A stretch of DNA of 64,000 nucleotides from Aurantiochytrium sp. KH105 (Eukaryota; Sar; Bigyra; Thraustochytrida; Thraustochytriidae): contig BGKB01000080.1 of the NCBI GenBank assembly GCA_003116975.1, forward strand, positions 246,109 through 310,108, written 5' to 3'. The notes below the pieces were generated by a model. That model did no database searches and was not told the origin of the DNA. It worked only from the letters and a program-made list of their open reading frames with translations. Positions within the stretch are counted from its first letter, which is position 1; each line of letters opens with the position of its first letter. The position numbers and the translations under genes are program-made. Below, in pieces: positions 4,263-41,134 of this stretch.

Positions 4263-5271
4263 GCCAAGGCAAGCAAGCGCCACTTGTTCTTACAGTTAGA
4301 GTGAGCCGTGTGCAGGAGAGGCGCTCTGCACCGCGCCGCGTTCGGCAGGCGAAGGCAGAAGCGCGAAGGGGCGACGCACGCGCGCGAGGCCCTGCCTGCA
4401 CCGCGCCGCCGCGGCCGGCCAGGACCCGGCGCAGCATGCAGCATCAGCATGCAGCGCGGCGCGTAGTGCGGCGGCGCACCGTGAGCAGCAGGGGTTGGCT
4501 GCACCGGGTCTGGTGCGGGCGCGCCCCCCGCCGGGGCCTGCTTCTGCGCCAGAGCTGGCGCGCTGTGCAGAGGCGTCGTGATGCGGGCGGCTGCGCTGCT
4601 GCAGCTGCTGCGGCTGCAGACGCAGGGCAGCGGTGCGGCGCAGCGGCTGCGATGGATGGACGGACGCACGGACGGATGGATGAATGGATGGTCCCTCCCC
4701 TCCCCTCCCCGAGGCTTCCGACGGCGAGGAAAGCATCAAATCGATGCGCAAACGTAAGGCTTGGGCGTGCGGAGAATAGCGGACCGGTTTCGGCGCGATA
4801 GATCCGCGGTGCGCGGGCAAGACGGACGAGGCGCTCTCGTCAGCCAGTACACCACAGACACACAGAGCAGTATACACTGTCAACTATCGTGAATACCCTA
4901 CTGTATCCGCCACCGTAAGCACTACAGAAAGGGAAATACAAACCAGCCGCAGACAGCCAGCCAGAGGCGAAGTCTGCGAGACCAAAAGAAAGAAAGATAG
5001 AAACTACCGAGGCAAGAGACAGACAGACGCAGAGAGAGAGAGAGCAGAACAAGCGCGGCGCGGCGCGGGGGGAAAGCAGAGAGAGAGGAAAGGAGAGGAA
5101 AGGAGAGGAAAGGAAAGCGAGCTCGGGCGGGCGGGCGGGCAGGCAAAGCGCAGAGCGCAGCGGCGAGCGGCGGAGAGGCGAGCGGCGGCGCGGCGAGGCA
5201 GCGGCGAGGGCGGCGGTGCGCGGCGTGCGCGGCGTGCGCGGAGGGCGGCGGGCTCGCGGGGTCCGGGGAGG

Positions 5272-5402
5272 ATGATGATGATGGGCGCGACGCGCGGCGC
5301 GGCGGCGCGGGCGGCGCGCAGGGCGGGCGCGGCGCGGGCGGCGGGCGCGCGCGGGCTGGCGGCGCGGCGGGGCGCGGAGGCGAGGACAGGGAGCTGCGCA
5401 CG
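5272..5402 (+). other. Out-of-frame mitochondrial-presequence-like leader
   Basis: Four consecutive ATG codons at 5272-5283 open a frame rich in Arg and Ala without acidic residues (GATRGAAARAARRAG and onward), typical of a mitochondrial presequence. It is in a different frame from the dehydrogenase-like gene and stops at 5404. No GT dinucleotide occurs between 5281 and 5400, so a GT-AG intron cannot join them. A single missing base in this GC-rich stretch would fuse leader and enzyme. Confidence 0.45.
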
Positions 5403-5438
5403 CTGAACAAGGCGCACTCGATCAACAGCGGCGTGACG

Positions 5439-6929
5439 ATGAACCACCCGGGGGGCGTGGCGGCGCCGGAAAACGAGGCCGAGGCCGTGCAGCAGACGCA
5501 GCGCGTCTTCAAGTCGCTCGTGTCCGGCGACGTGCACGGGTCGTACAAGACCAAGGAGAACGTGGCCCACTGGCGCAAGCGCCCCCTCTTCAAGAGGTCC
5601 GGAAAGAACCTCACGTTCACCAGCGGCCAGGAGGCCGCCGAGCTCCTCGTCGACGAGGCGCGCCGCCGCGACCCGTACCAGGTGGACTTTTTGCAGTGCG
5701 TGCAGGAGGTCTCCCAGGACGTCGCCGTGACGATGGAGGGCGCCCCCAAGCTGGCATGGGTCTTCAAGCAGCTCATGGAGCCCGAGCGCCTCGTCACCTT
5801 CCGCGTGCCCTGGACCGACGACAACGGCAACGCGCGCATCAACCGCGGATACCGCATCCAGTACTCGAGCGCCCTCGGGCCGTACCACGGCGCGCTCCGC
5901 TTCCACCCCCACCTCTCGCACGGCGCGGTGCGCATGCTCGGATGGGAGCAGACCCTCAAGAACGCGCTCACCGGCGCCCCCCTCGGCGGCTCGCGCGGCG
6001 GATCTGACTTTGACCCCAGCAACAAGTCCGAGCACGAGATCCGCAGGTTCACCAATGCCTTCATGTGCGAGCTCGTCGACTTCATCGGACCCGGCCTCGA
6101 CACCCTTGAGACCGACCTCGGCGTCGGCTCCAGCGTCATGGCCGCCCTCCACGACGCCTACCGCCACATGGACGTCGAGGGCGCCTCGGACGCCAACAGC
6201 TCGCTCTTTGGCGCCTGCGAGGTCTTCCCCGAGGCCTCCGGCTTTGGTAGCGTCTACTTTGCCCAGCGCGCCCTCGAGGTCCGCGGAGAGTCCCTTCAGG
6301 ACAAGCGCTGCCTCATTTCTGGCTCGGGCACCCTTGCCCGCTCCACGGCGCTCAAGCTCATCGAGAAGGGCGCCAAGCCCATTACTCTCTCGGACGACTC
6401 GGGCTTTATTGTCGCCGAAAATGGCTTTGTCCCCGGCGACCTCGAGAACATCGCGCAAATCAAAAAGTCCAAGGGCTCGCTCAAGGAGTACGCGCGCCTC
6501 GCCAACGTGCAGTTCTTTGGCTCTGGCTCGCAGTGGGAGCAGGTCAAGGGAGACATCGCCTTTCCCTCGGTCATCCAGTCCGAGATCAACACTGACGACG
6601 CCACCTTGCTTGCGGACAACGGCTGCCTTGCCGTCTTTGAGAACGCCGACCGCGCCTGCACGCCCAACGCCCAGACTGTGCTCGACGACCGTGGCCTCCT
6701 CTTCGCGCCCAGCAAGGCCGTCAACTGCGGCTCGGTCATTGCCAGCACCCATGTCGGCGAATCCCGCGAGGAGATGGACAAGGCCCTTTCGGAGCGCATG
6801 GCCGAGCTCCACGACGAAATTGCCGAGACCGCCTCCCGCTACGGCCACCCGGGCGACCTTCAGGCTGGCGCCAACCTTCTCTCCTTCATTCGCATTGCCA
6901 ACTCGCCCATGTACACGACGGAGATCTAA
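5439..6929 (+). CDS. Glutamate-dehydrogenase-fold protein, probable pseudoenzyme
   Basis: 496 residues from the first in-frame ATG. It aligns over its whole length with hexameric NADP-type glutamate dehydrogenases: substrate domain (INRGYRIQYSSALGP, LRFHP, WEQTLKNALT, RGGSDFDP) and a C-terminal Rossmann domain (SGSGTLA, then SDDSGF). Residues that bind and convert glutamate in the family are changed: the YKGG lysine is His (about residue 150), the catalytic GGGKGG lysine is Arg (about 186), the IRPEATG arginine is Phe (about 263) and the GAN motif is NAD (about 402). The middle lysine (LKNALT) and the aspartate of the DIGVG motif (here DLGVG) remain. The in-frame sequence upstream (for example EDRELRTLNKAHS) reads as coding without an ATG, so the true N-terminus is probably longer. 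Fold is certain; normal deamination activity is doubtful. Confidence 0.85.
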   Translation: MNHPGGVAAPENEAEAVQQTQRVFKSLVSGDVHGSYKTKENVAHWRKRPLFKRSGKNLTFTSGQEAAELLVDEARRRDPYQVDFLQCVQEVSQDVAVTMEGAPKLAWVFKQLMEPERLVTFRVPWTDDNGNARINRGYRIQYSSALGPYHGALRFHPHLSHGAVRMLGWEQTLKNALTGAPLGGSRGGSDFDPSNKSEHEIRRFTNAFMCELVDFIGPGLDTLETDLGVGSSVMAALHDAYRHMDVEGASDANSSLFGACEVFPEASGFGSVYFAQRALEVRGESLQDKRCLISGSGTLARSTALKLIEKGAKPITLSDDSGFIVAENGFVPGDLENIAQIKKSKGSLKEYARLANVQFFGSGSQWEQVKGDIAFPSVIQSEINTDDATLLADNGCLAVFENADRACTPNAQTVLDDRGLLFAPSKAVNCGSVIASTHVGESREEMDKALSERMAELHDEIAETASRYGHPGDLQAGANLLSFIRIANSPMYTTEI

Positions 6930-7556
6930 ATTACACGCTAGATCACAACTGGTAGGGGTGCGCAATCGTGCTGATTGGCGCGCGCGATCTCCAGATGAGG
7001 ATCGGCAATGTGCGCACAACGCCGCGCGAGGCAGTTGTCATGTCTTTTCTTCTTCTTCTTCTTCTTCGATAATCCTTTATTCACTAACCCAAGATCTTTT
7101 GACTGCCACTCTTGAGTTTCATTATTATCATCGTCGGCATCATCATCATCATCCGCAGCACTAGCAGCACCAGTACCAGCAACGGCAGCAGCGCTGGCTC
7201 CCCACTCTTACAATATTCCTGTGCGTGCATTGCAGGCACTTTCTGCAAGAAACACGATCGAGATTCCCTTGGTAGAAATTTGTTGACCCGCCACTCGCAT
7301 ATTTTAGCTTGTCTTACGAAGCTGGCTGGAGAAGCACTTTCAAGGTTGTTGGAGACGCACGAAGCTCGCCATGGGCACGCAAAGGTAGCAGCAGACATGA
7401 TTGAATCTTGCAGGTTGCCCCAGCCATCTCATCACATTTTTCAGACACACCCAGGACACAAACGTCAGTGATTTACTGGATATACGAGAGCTGAATATCA
7501 TCTCCTCACGGCTCAACCGTGTCACTACTATAAAAATCAAAGTATACAAATTGTCT
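6930..7556. other. Convergent intergenic region, no gene seen
   Basis: 627 bp between two genes that end towards each other. It holds TTC and CAT/ATC trinucleotide patches near 7045-7160 and otherwise unremarkable sequence. Confidence 0.5.
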
Positions 7557-14398: not shown

Positions 14399-15700
14399 TC
14401 ACTTGAACTCGTACGTTTCGGCAAAGTACTGATCGTAGTGAACCGAATGGTGCGATGCACGAGCCTGAATGACCTCTTGTGCTTCCTGAGCGAGACCACC
14501 GGGAAAACTATTGGCATTGCAACGCGTCTTTTGCACAAAAAAGTTAGTGAAATACTGCGCCAGAAAAATCGCGTTGGGAGAGTGGGGGATGCCGGAAGGC
14601 ACGAACCACTCAAAAATGGCCTTTTCAGGATGGAACTGTACACCATAAATGGGCAGTCCTCCCTTGGCCTCAATCATGGCAACAAAGGGCTTGCCCTTCT
14701 TGTCCACATAGGTAGCGAGGTCGGTAAAGAAGCCGCTAAGCTTGGGGTTGCTCTTGAAGACTTCCGGATCGACGCCCTGTCCGTGCGCGTTGAATGTGAT
14801 GTTCTTGCTTTCCATCGCCTCACGAAGTACATCAGGCATGGATCCCACAAGCTCACTCGAGGCAGCATTCGCGGTCAGGGTCACGGGGGCTGGGTAGTTT
14901 TCCGAGTCAAAAATGCCGCTTGCCGAGAGAATTGTTGCGTTGCTCCCGCTTGCGAGCACGGCGAGCTGCTCGAATCCGAGGCATGTGCCCCAAATCGGGT
15001 AGATCGTTCCCTTTGCATTCGCTTCGAGCGCCCAGTTGAAGAGCTTGGCACTCGCCTGCAAGAATTTGTAAATCGAGGGAAAACCGTCAATATGAGTGCC
15101 CTGACGACGACGACGACGACGACGACGGCACGGCGACCAGAACAAGACGATGTGAATGCGTCTTAGGGCCGTCAAAGGAAAACAAACTTACATCAAAGTA
15201 GGGATGTCCGGGCGAAAGGTTGGCGGCGCCACCTGGGAAAAAGAGACCGTTGATCGAGTCAAAGACGCGCTTCAATTCCTCGTCCGAAGAGGTGTAGCGC
15301 ACCGCGACTACGCGCGCGCCAGCCATTTCAAGATTCTATGTACGCAATGCATGCCGTTAGTCTCGTCGGCCAGTTTGTCGGGGTCTCGGCTGCTGCGCAA
15401 ATTGCGCCGAGGGCGGAAGCTTCACATGTTCGATTCGTCCCAACTCATTCTTGTCCAACGCACCTTGACGTAGGAGGCCGCAACGTATTCTCCGGCTCCT
15501 TCCTCTGCGGGCTGCGAGAGCACGCCAATGATGGGCCTGTCATTGACCACCTCGCAGGCGCTCGCGCCCAGGCTTTCCGCCTGCTTGCGCACGTCGAGGC
15601 TCGCGAAGCGAAGCCCGCGCGCCTCCACCGCCTCCAGCATGCCGCTCGCGACCAGCACGGCTGCCGCCAGCACCGCCGCGATTCCGCGCGCGCCCGCCAT
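14399..15700 (-). CDS. GGH: Gamma-glutamyl hydrolase, three exons
   Basis: Exons 15700-15464, 15335-15192 and 15055-14399 join in phase 0 to give 345 residues. Both introns have strong donors (GTGCGT and GTAAGT) and good acceptors (ACATAG, TTCTTGCAG). The enzyme removes gamma-linked glutamates from folylpolyglutamates in lysosomes, vacuoles or outside the cell. An N-terminal signal peptide (GIAAVLAAAVLVASG) fits this. The class-I glutamine-amidotransferase fold is clear: DRPIIGVLSQP start, INGLFFPGG, nucleophile Cys in WGTCLGFE (about residue 152) and catalytic His in GVQFHPEK (about 269). Exon joins reproduce the family's VK-x-LE-AGARVV and HPYFD-AKLF passages, which supports the splice sites. 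Diverges from the hydrolase gene at 16512. Confidence 0.9.
15056..15191 (-). other. GGH intron 2 with (GAC)n tract
   Basis: 136-bp GT-AG intron, phase 0, with a GTAAGT donor. It carries an in-phase CGA/GAC trinucleotide tract at about 15101-15126, so an unspliced read-through also looks open in that part. Confidence 0.8.
15336..15463 (-). other. GGH intron 1
   Basis: 128-bp GT-AG intron, phase 0; joining restores the family's ASYVK-NLEMAGARVV passage. Confidence 0.8.
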
Positions 15701-40097: not shown

Positions 40098-40215
<118 letters not shown>

Positions 40216-40493
40216 GTTCATGTCATGACTGTCATTTCACCGACGCGGCCGGCCTCATGGATTTCACTTGCCTCGCTACTTACCTCTCGACTTCTACCTC
40301 TCTCTCCGTCGCCCTCCCGCGCCGACGATTCGCCAGGCCTCGCGCCGCCCCTCCCTCCCGCCCTCCCGCGCCGGAGCGGGCGGCGAGGGCGGAGGCCGGG
40401 CGGAGCGAGCGAAGGCCTGGCCGGCAGGGCCGCTCGTCCGTCGCGGGCGGGGGGCCCGGGCCCGGAGGGGGAGAGAGAGGCAGGTAAAGCCTC

Positions 40494-40702
40494 CTTTCCT
40501 TTCCTTTCCTTTCCTTTCCTTTCCTTTCCTTTCCTTTCCTTTCCTTTCCTTTCCTTTCCTTTCCTTTCNNNNNNNNNNNNNNNNNNNNNNNNNTTTCCTT
40601 TCCTTTCCTTTCCTTTCCTTTCCTTTCCTTTCCTTTCCTTTCCTTTCCTTCCCTTTCCTTTCCTTTCCTTTCCTTTCCTTCCCTTTCCTTTCCTTTCCCT
40701 CC
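40494..40702. repeat. (TTTCC)n pentanucleotide array containing an assembly gap
   Basis: TTTCC units on both sides of 25 N at 40569-40593; the right part is slightly degenerate (CCC interruptions). The true length is unknown because the gap falls inside the array. The same pentamer recurs at 48568-48624. Confidence 0.95.
40569..40593. other. Assembly gap (25 N)
   Basis: Twenty-five undefined bases inside the TTTCC array; the round number suggests a placeholder size. Confidence 0.99.
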
Positions 40703-41134
40703 CTCCCTTTCCTTGGCACTGTCGGCGAGGAAGGCGGAGACGCGGGCATTGCATTACATTCACAGTCATTTTGAGGGAGGGGGGCTGGCACATTTCACTC
40801 CGTTTCATCTCCCTCCTGCCGCGAGGATCCGGCAGGACTCGAGAAGCAGATCGCGAACGCAGACGAGGAGCAGAGCAGCAGGTACGAGGGCGGCGGGCAG
40901 TACGCGCGCGAGGGCGGGAGGAGGCGCGCGGCGGGGAGGAGGCGCGCGGCGCGGAGGGTCGCGGCGGCGTCTGGCCTGGGCCCCTCTTGGAGAGGAGGAT
41001 GGAGGAGCAGCGGAGGATGGTGGCTGACCGGGAGGGCGAAGCTGAGAGAAGATGAGAACGCTGACGAGGAGGGAGTCGTGTACGCGGCGCAGCAGAGCGA
41101 CAGCGACGAGAACAGACAAGGAGAAGAAGACAAG

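Follow-up and report, generated by a model that had tools for sequence, protein, structure and literature searches.

A glutamate dehydrogenase-like gene of Aurantiochytrium sp. KH105 that has lost the catalytic lysine is a candidate pseudoenzyme gene

We describe a glutamate dehydrogenase (GDH)-like gene of Aurantiochytrium sp. KH105 in which both signature lysines of the family, those of the YKGG and GGGKGG motifs, are replaced. The gene is under recent purifying selection, as shown by one haplotype pair of one organism. From the residues that have changed, we strongly infer that ordinary GDH catalysis has been lost. With moderate confidence we favor the reading that the gene encodes a pseudoenzyme derived from an NADP-dependent GDH, which would have a stoichiometric binding or structural role without GDH catalysis, perhaps in the mitochondrion.

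Results

The stretch of DNA analyzed (the window; 64,000 nucleotides, C80:246109-310108) belongs to a 76.0-Mb diploid-like assembly of 367 contigs, in which GDH-type genes occur as near-identical pairs. Its GC content ranges from 51 to 68% in 2-kb steps, and introns together with actin, tubulin, and kinesin genes mark the genome as eukaryotic. Elsewhere in the window we noted a perfect (CTTT)n array (40099-40213) and an imperfect (TCCTT)n array (40492-40714), the second of which encloses an assembly gap (N run, 40569-40593). On the minus strand, positions 14399-15175 hold a gene with a class-I glutamine amidotransferase/peptidase C26 domain, perhaps a gamma-glutamyl hydrolase; because its profile matches begin well inside the models, this open reading frame (ORF) may be a partial gene.

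The GDH-like ORF (5433-6929) has no internal stops, and its features are collected in Table 1. The protein belongs to the ELFV dehydrogenase superfamily, with Pfam scores of 137.3 bits for PF02812 (cut-off 25.3) and 160.8 bits for PF00208 (cut-off 23.4). The NCBIfam NADP-GDH model PRK09414 is matched along almost all of the model at 391.3 bits, which is under its curated cut-off of 536. GDHs (3r3j, 5gud, and 5ijz) are the best-matching solved structures, and identity to NADP-GDH relatives is 35-41%, including 38% to the genome's own NADP-GDH. Relative to NADP-GDHs the protein has an N-terminal extension of about 60-70 residues, the exact start of which is uncertain. This extension contains no Pfam domain (best E 0.91), and against the Protein Data Bank it matched just eight prolactin sequences (E 0.46-0.55).

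Table 1. Features of the GDH-like gene and its 5' region, in window coordinates (residues numbered from the GTG at 5433)
Feature	Position	Strand	Remarks
ATGATGATGATG with Arg/Ala-rich, mitochondrial-targeting-like reading	5272-5406	+	off the ORF frame; stop at 5404-5406
19 in-frame codons before ATG 5439	5382-5438	+	all end in G or C; GC at positions 1+2 drops to 0.45
GDH-like ORF	5433-6929	+	498 codons from GTG; first in-frame ATG 5439; stop 6927-6929
ELFV dehydrogenase dimerisation domain (PF02812)	5781-6167	+	residues 117-245; Pfam
His152 for YKGG lysine (C. symbiosum Lys89)	5886-5888	+	alignment
Retained Gln173 (Gln110) and Lys176 (Lys113)	5949-5960	+	alignment
Arg188 for catalytic GGGKGG lysine (Lys125)	5994-5996	+	alignment
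Asp228, the catalytic aspartate (Asp165), retained	6114-6116	+	alignment
SSVMA for GREIG	6129-6143	+	alignment
ELFV dehydrogenase dinucleotide-binding domain (PF00208)	6225-6905	+	residues 265-491; Pfam
Phe265 for RPEATG arginine (Arg205)	6225-6227	+	alignment
Asp406 for EGAN asparagine (EGAN to ENAD)	6648-6650	+	alignment
Ser438 beside the 8-residue deletion of the GLEMSQN region	6744-6746	+	equals Ser380 only with the gap placed after it

C. symbiosum GDH numbering was transferred through the 2yfh chain, whose positions are one higher than the transferred numbering in the N-terminal part. The roles of Lys89, Lys125, Arg205, Gln110, Lys113, and other residues are known from the clostridial enzyme. 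An initial annotation, made from the letters of the window, had read His and Arg at the two lysine positions, Phe at the RPEATG arginine, NAD in place of GAN, and SSVMA in place of the glycine-flanked motif; all of these changes are present, and the two lysine replacements are the same in both haplotypes. Further changes comprise A163 to Glu (Glu226), G164 to Thr, N240 to Thr (Thr300), TGK to DAN, and PAG to LET. In the GLEMSQN region eight residues are deleted, and the placement of this gap decides whether the match to Ser380 is kept or lost, giving 52 or 53 changed columns in the comparison below. A163, G164, R205, N240, EGAN, TGK, GREIG, and the deleted segment presumably face the cleft where substrate and nicotinamide sit. 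The dinucleotide motif reads GSGTLA in place of GSGNVA, with the GSGxxA core retained. The GDH aspartate is described as important in PMC12018205, where it appears as Asp156; a paper titled D165S is cited there.

We compared the protein with 83 relatives: 78 of 80 genome-contig loci, 4 of 7 viral-collection loci, and the organism's own NADP-GDH. The 80 genome-contig loci are the best 80 of at least 591 by similarity to the query, a choice that favors look-alikes. Four loci were dropped under an ORF-start rule (L073, L098, L109, and L112) and one as partial (L115); in all five YKGG is kept, as is KGG wherever it is covered. Both the YKGG and the GGGKGG positions are lysine in 83 of 83 relatives (genome loci from the best 80 of at least 591), in line with the near-invariance that the initial annotation had stated. 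Columns at least 95% conserved number 140. The query departs at 53 of these; among the relatives the median number of departures is 1 and the largest is 14 (L114; n = 83, genome loci again from the best 80 of at least 591). By region, the query keeps 4 of the 7 near-invariant columns ahead of domain I, 46 of 67 within it, 2 of 7 linker columns, 26 of 36 in domain II, and 9 of 23 C-terminal columns. Of 18 positions that we take to line the cleft, 16 are near-invariant; 10 of these 16 are lost, versus 43 of the 124 other columns (P = 0.052), an enrichment that is only suggestive. With changes spread over the whole protein and this P value, the data do not prove that the active site was specifically targeted.

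Several viral-collection loci deserve mention in their own right. L114:2938-4278 (IMG/VR) is the most divergent of the 83 GDHs, with 14 of 142 near-invariant columns changed and both lysines present. L109:3001-5824, on a 161-kb IMG/VR contig, carries two tandem GDH-like genes that both keep the lysines, the second with GFGQVAFG where most GDHs have GSGNVA. A tandem GDH-like pair also occurs at L112:3001-4822 (viral collection), where the second copy is cut off.

A maximum-likelihood tree of 87 rows placed the query on the NADP-GDH side, where its terminal branch measures 4.54 (compared with a median of 0.24, and 0.8 for the own NADP-GDH), and showed no well-supported smaller group containing it. 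Long branch and present constraint together may reflect rapid divergence soon after the gene was duplicated or acquired, followed by conservation. Pattern and relative searches of viral contigs returned no close relative; 16 pattern matches in genome contigs included no relative; and phage records gave 27 matches, all under 60% identity, with 37.3% the best among the matches listed. As these searches yielded no orthologue, conservation is judged from two haplotypes of one organism.

The second haplotype is contig C209, which aligns with the window from 77 to 63999 in colinear blocks of more than 300 bases at 79-97% identity, with some gaps. C209 carries identical residues at the substituted sites; the substitutions are thus no read error, and we rejected sequencing error for the gene body (5628-6929). 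The haplotype comparison covers this same interval, 5433-5627 being missing from C209. Over 1299 bases, the haplotypes differ at 15 codons, 14 synonymously and one nonsynonymously (Ser to Ala), which corresponds to dN 0.0010 and dS 0.047 by NG86 and dN 0.0009 and dS 0.102 by YN00. Under neutrality (kappa 2) the expected nonsynonymous fraction is 0.74, and the probability of one or fewer nonsynonymous changes among 15 is 6.5e-8. Paralogue pairs gave synonymous to nonsynonymous counts of 18:0, 22:1, 22:1, and 16:4; pooled, 78:6 versus 14:1 yields a Fisher P of 1. A pseudogene was rejected on the intact frame, the 14:1 ratio, and the biased codons in both haplotypes. We also considered a 671-residue antisense ORF (5004-7019, minus strand). 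It has no Pfam match at E 0.001, and the haplotype differences give no hint of coding: read in each antisense frame in turn, 14, 3, and 13 of the 15 would be nonsynonymous, the frame with 3 holding six stops. This ORF is probably a by-product of codon bias.

A PF02812 profile search of the genome, which covers PF02812-type genes, gave at least 12 matches forming at least five gene pairs. One pair (C6/C15) is an NADP-GDH with one intron and both lysines, a paralogue of the kind that the initial annotation had suggested looking for; read from MPEEKAMSD, it shows no evident targeting peptide. Two more GDH pairs (C5/C21 and C293/C238) have both lysines. With such genes elsewhere in the genome, ordinary GDH capacity is covered. 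The leucine-dehydrogenase-like pair C8/C218 keeps the catalytic GGGKG lysine and has Cys at the position of the YKGG lysine; to our knowledge, leucine dehydrogenases lack the latter. All four other superfamily genes found, a minimum number, therefore keep the catalytic lysine. The leucine-dehydrogenase-like gene (L017 on C8, L018 on C218) also has a targeting-like N terminus and the most nonsynonymous allelic differences among the paralogue pairs (4 of 20).

Codon adaptation was scored against actin, two tubulins, and an EF1A-like gene, all named from sequence and Pfam searches; these references themselves scored 0.71-0.86 when left out one at a time. The two domains of the GDH-like gene scored 0.62, as did the second haplotype. 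Elsewhere in the genome, mitochondrial EF-Tu scored 0.64, NADP-GDH 0.50, the leucine-dehydrogenase-like gene 0.34, and the other two GDHs 0.26 each. Fourteen domain stretches of other window genes ranged from 0.14 to 0.38, and a fifteenth window gene reached 0.32 against a slightly different reference. With a slightly different reference, too, the second part of the GDH-like gene scored 0.65 and the more GC-rich first part 0.58; the codon adaptation is therefore more than an effect of local GC content. As a proxy, this codon bias suggests that the GDH-like protein is abundant, and at least as abundant as the NADP-GDH. The initial annotation had proposed a retained role under selection; the strong codon adaptation and a haplotype ratio like that of the paralogues agree with this. 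In the same survey, a PfaA-like (polyunsaturated fatty acid synthase) stretch scored 0.72; it matches its model at 930 bits, under the cut-off of 1010, and the same model gave weaker matches, all short of the cut-off, in 11 of the 14 control genomes from bacteria and archaea.

The 5' end of the gene is conflicted. The initial annotation had reported a frame free of stops and frameshifts, which holds for 5439-6929; at the 5' end a targeting-like reading lies in another frame (Table 1) and C209 has an N. C209 keeps the same ATG run, with the assembly N just after it, at L009:5316. Upstream, the ORF frame stays open as far as 5001 and offers no ATG before 5439. Judged by the codons in Table 1, positions 5382-5438 are probably coding, with a start upstream of 5439. 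A GT-AG intron was considered and rejected, since the first GT after 5272 is at 5433; with no GT in 5272-5432, an ordinary intron does not explain the conflict. The conflict most likely stems from an error of sequence or assembly in this GC-rich stretch. Any frame of such DNA gives Arg, Ala, and Gly; mitochondrial targeting of the GDH-like protein is possible from the predicted peptide.

Discussion

The protein resembles NADP-specific GDHs in having both Pfam domains, a near full-length alignment at 35-41% identity (solved relatives 3r3j, 5ijz, and 4fcc), the catalytic aspartate, the Lys113 and Gln110 equivalents, and GSGxxA. It differs from them by Lys89 to His, Lys125 to Arg, Arg205 to Phe, EGAN to ENAD, GREIG to SSVMA, PAG to LET, the 8-residue deletion, and the N-terminal extension. 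A kept fold with lost catalytic residues, in a gene under selection, is what we would look for in the sequence of a pseudoenzyme. We envisage a diverged NADP-GDH paralogue that by its sequence keeps the two-domain fold, with residues for glutamate oxidation gone. Such a protein would fold, and probably oligomerise, like a GDH subunit. A dinucleotide or amino-acid ligand may still be bound in its remodelled cleft, given the retained GSGxxA and the equivalents of Asp165, Lys113, and Gln110, and the protein may act as one subunit of a larger, perhaps mitochondrial, assembly or as its scaffold.

Some observations count against a pseudoenzyme: the dinucleotide fingerprint and catalytic aspartate are retained, which would also be expected of an enzyme with new chemistry; a high-flux enzyme, too, would show high codon adaptation; the targeting-like peptide is off the ORF frame; and the changes are not clearly cleft-focused. 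The main rival is accordingly a working oxidoreductase with altered chemistry or substrate, which we think unlikely. Here Asp228 and the dinucleotide domain would act on another amino acid, an oxo acid, or an imine, and Arg188 and His152 would be new binding residues. The GSGxxA core and the Asp165, Lys113, and Gln110 equivalents would serve such an enzyme, and strong constraint with high codon adaptation would suit a high flux. However, all 83 relatives (genome loci from the best 80 of at least 591) have Lys125, as do the four other superfamily genes found, and R205, N240, and EGAN are changed as well, with the GLEMSQN segment deleted.

Quite improbable, in our judgment, is a regulatory subunit that would co-assemble with, or poison, the NADP-GDH hexamer of C6/C15. 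The position of the query on the NADP-GDH side of the family would suit this, as would the raised codon adaptation of both genes (0.62 and 0.50), but identity to that NADP-GDH is just 38%. The two proteins may also occupy different compartments, as the NADP-GDH is without an evident targeting peptide and the GDH-like gene may have one, and the idea is weakened by codon bias that suggests a GDH-like protein at least as abundant as its supposed target. That the gene encodes an ordinary GDH tolerating the changes is very improbable: the NADP-GDH model does match nearly the whole length at 391 bits, but this is below the cut-off of 536, and 53 of 140 near-invariant columns are changed. A pseudogene, sequencing error, or assembly artefact can practically be dismissed. 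The 5' end is conflicted in both haplotypes, yet these carry the same residues while differing at 15 codons, 14 of them synonymous, with an intact frame and biased codons.

If the protein is the pseudoenzyme that we favor, known systems offer analogies for its role. Other dehydrogenase folds have well-known pseudoenzymes. In NDUFA9 and similar accessory subunits of complex I, a dehydrogenase fold is kept for structure or cofactor holding in a mitochondrial assembly. By analogy, we tentatively raise the doubtful but specific possibility that in this protist lineage the GDH-like protein was recruited into a mitochondrial assembly as an abundant, non-catalytic subunit or scaffold, and that a bound dinucleotide or amino acid might couple this assembly to nitrogen or redox state. 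NDUFA9 differs in belonging to the SDR fold family, and the GDH-like protein is known here from its gene. NmrA and HSCARG are dehydrogenase-like NADPH sensors that bind dinucleotides and regulate; they too have an SDR rather than an ELFV fold, and the likeness is one of analogy. GDH itself sits between nitrogen and carbon metabolism.

The nearest functional parallel in print, within the open-access literature searched, is Staphylococcus aureus YwlG. According to that report (PMC9522360), YwlG has a GDH fold, the recombinant protein is without dehydrogenase activity and binds HPF, and the authors weigh a pseudoenzyme role; its overexpression can nevertheless compensate lost GDH activity in vivo (PMC9522360). 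YwlG is bacterial and distantly NAD-GDH-like, and we liken it to the GDH-like protein by description, not residue by residue. A narrow search of open-access literature found no eukaryotic GDH pseudoenzyme. If our preferred reading is true, this copy, maintained by selection and seemingly highly expressed beside four relatives that keep the lysine, would show that a eukaryote can put the GDH fold to a non-catalytic use, and would offer a concrete gene on which to test this.
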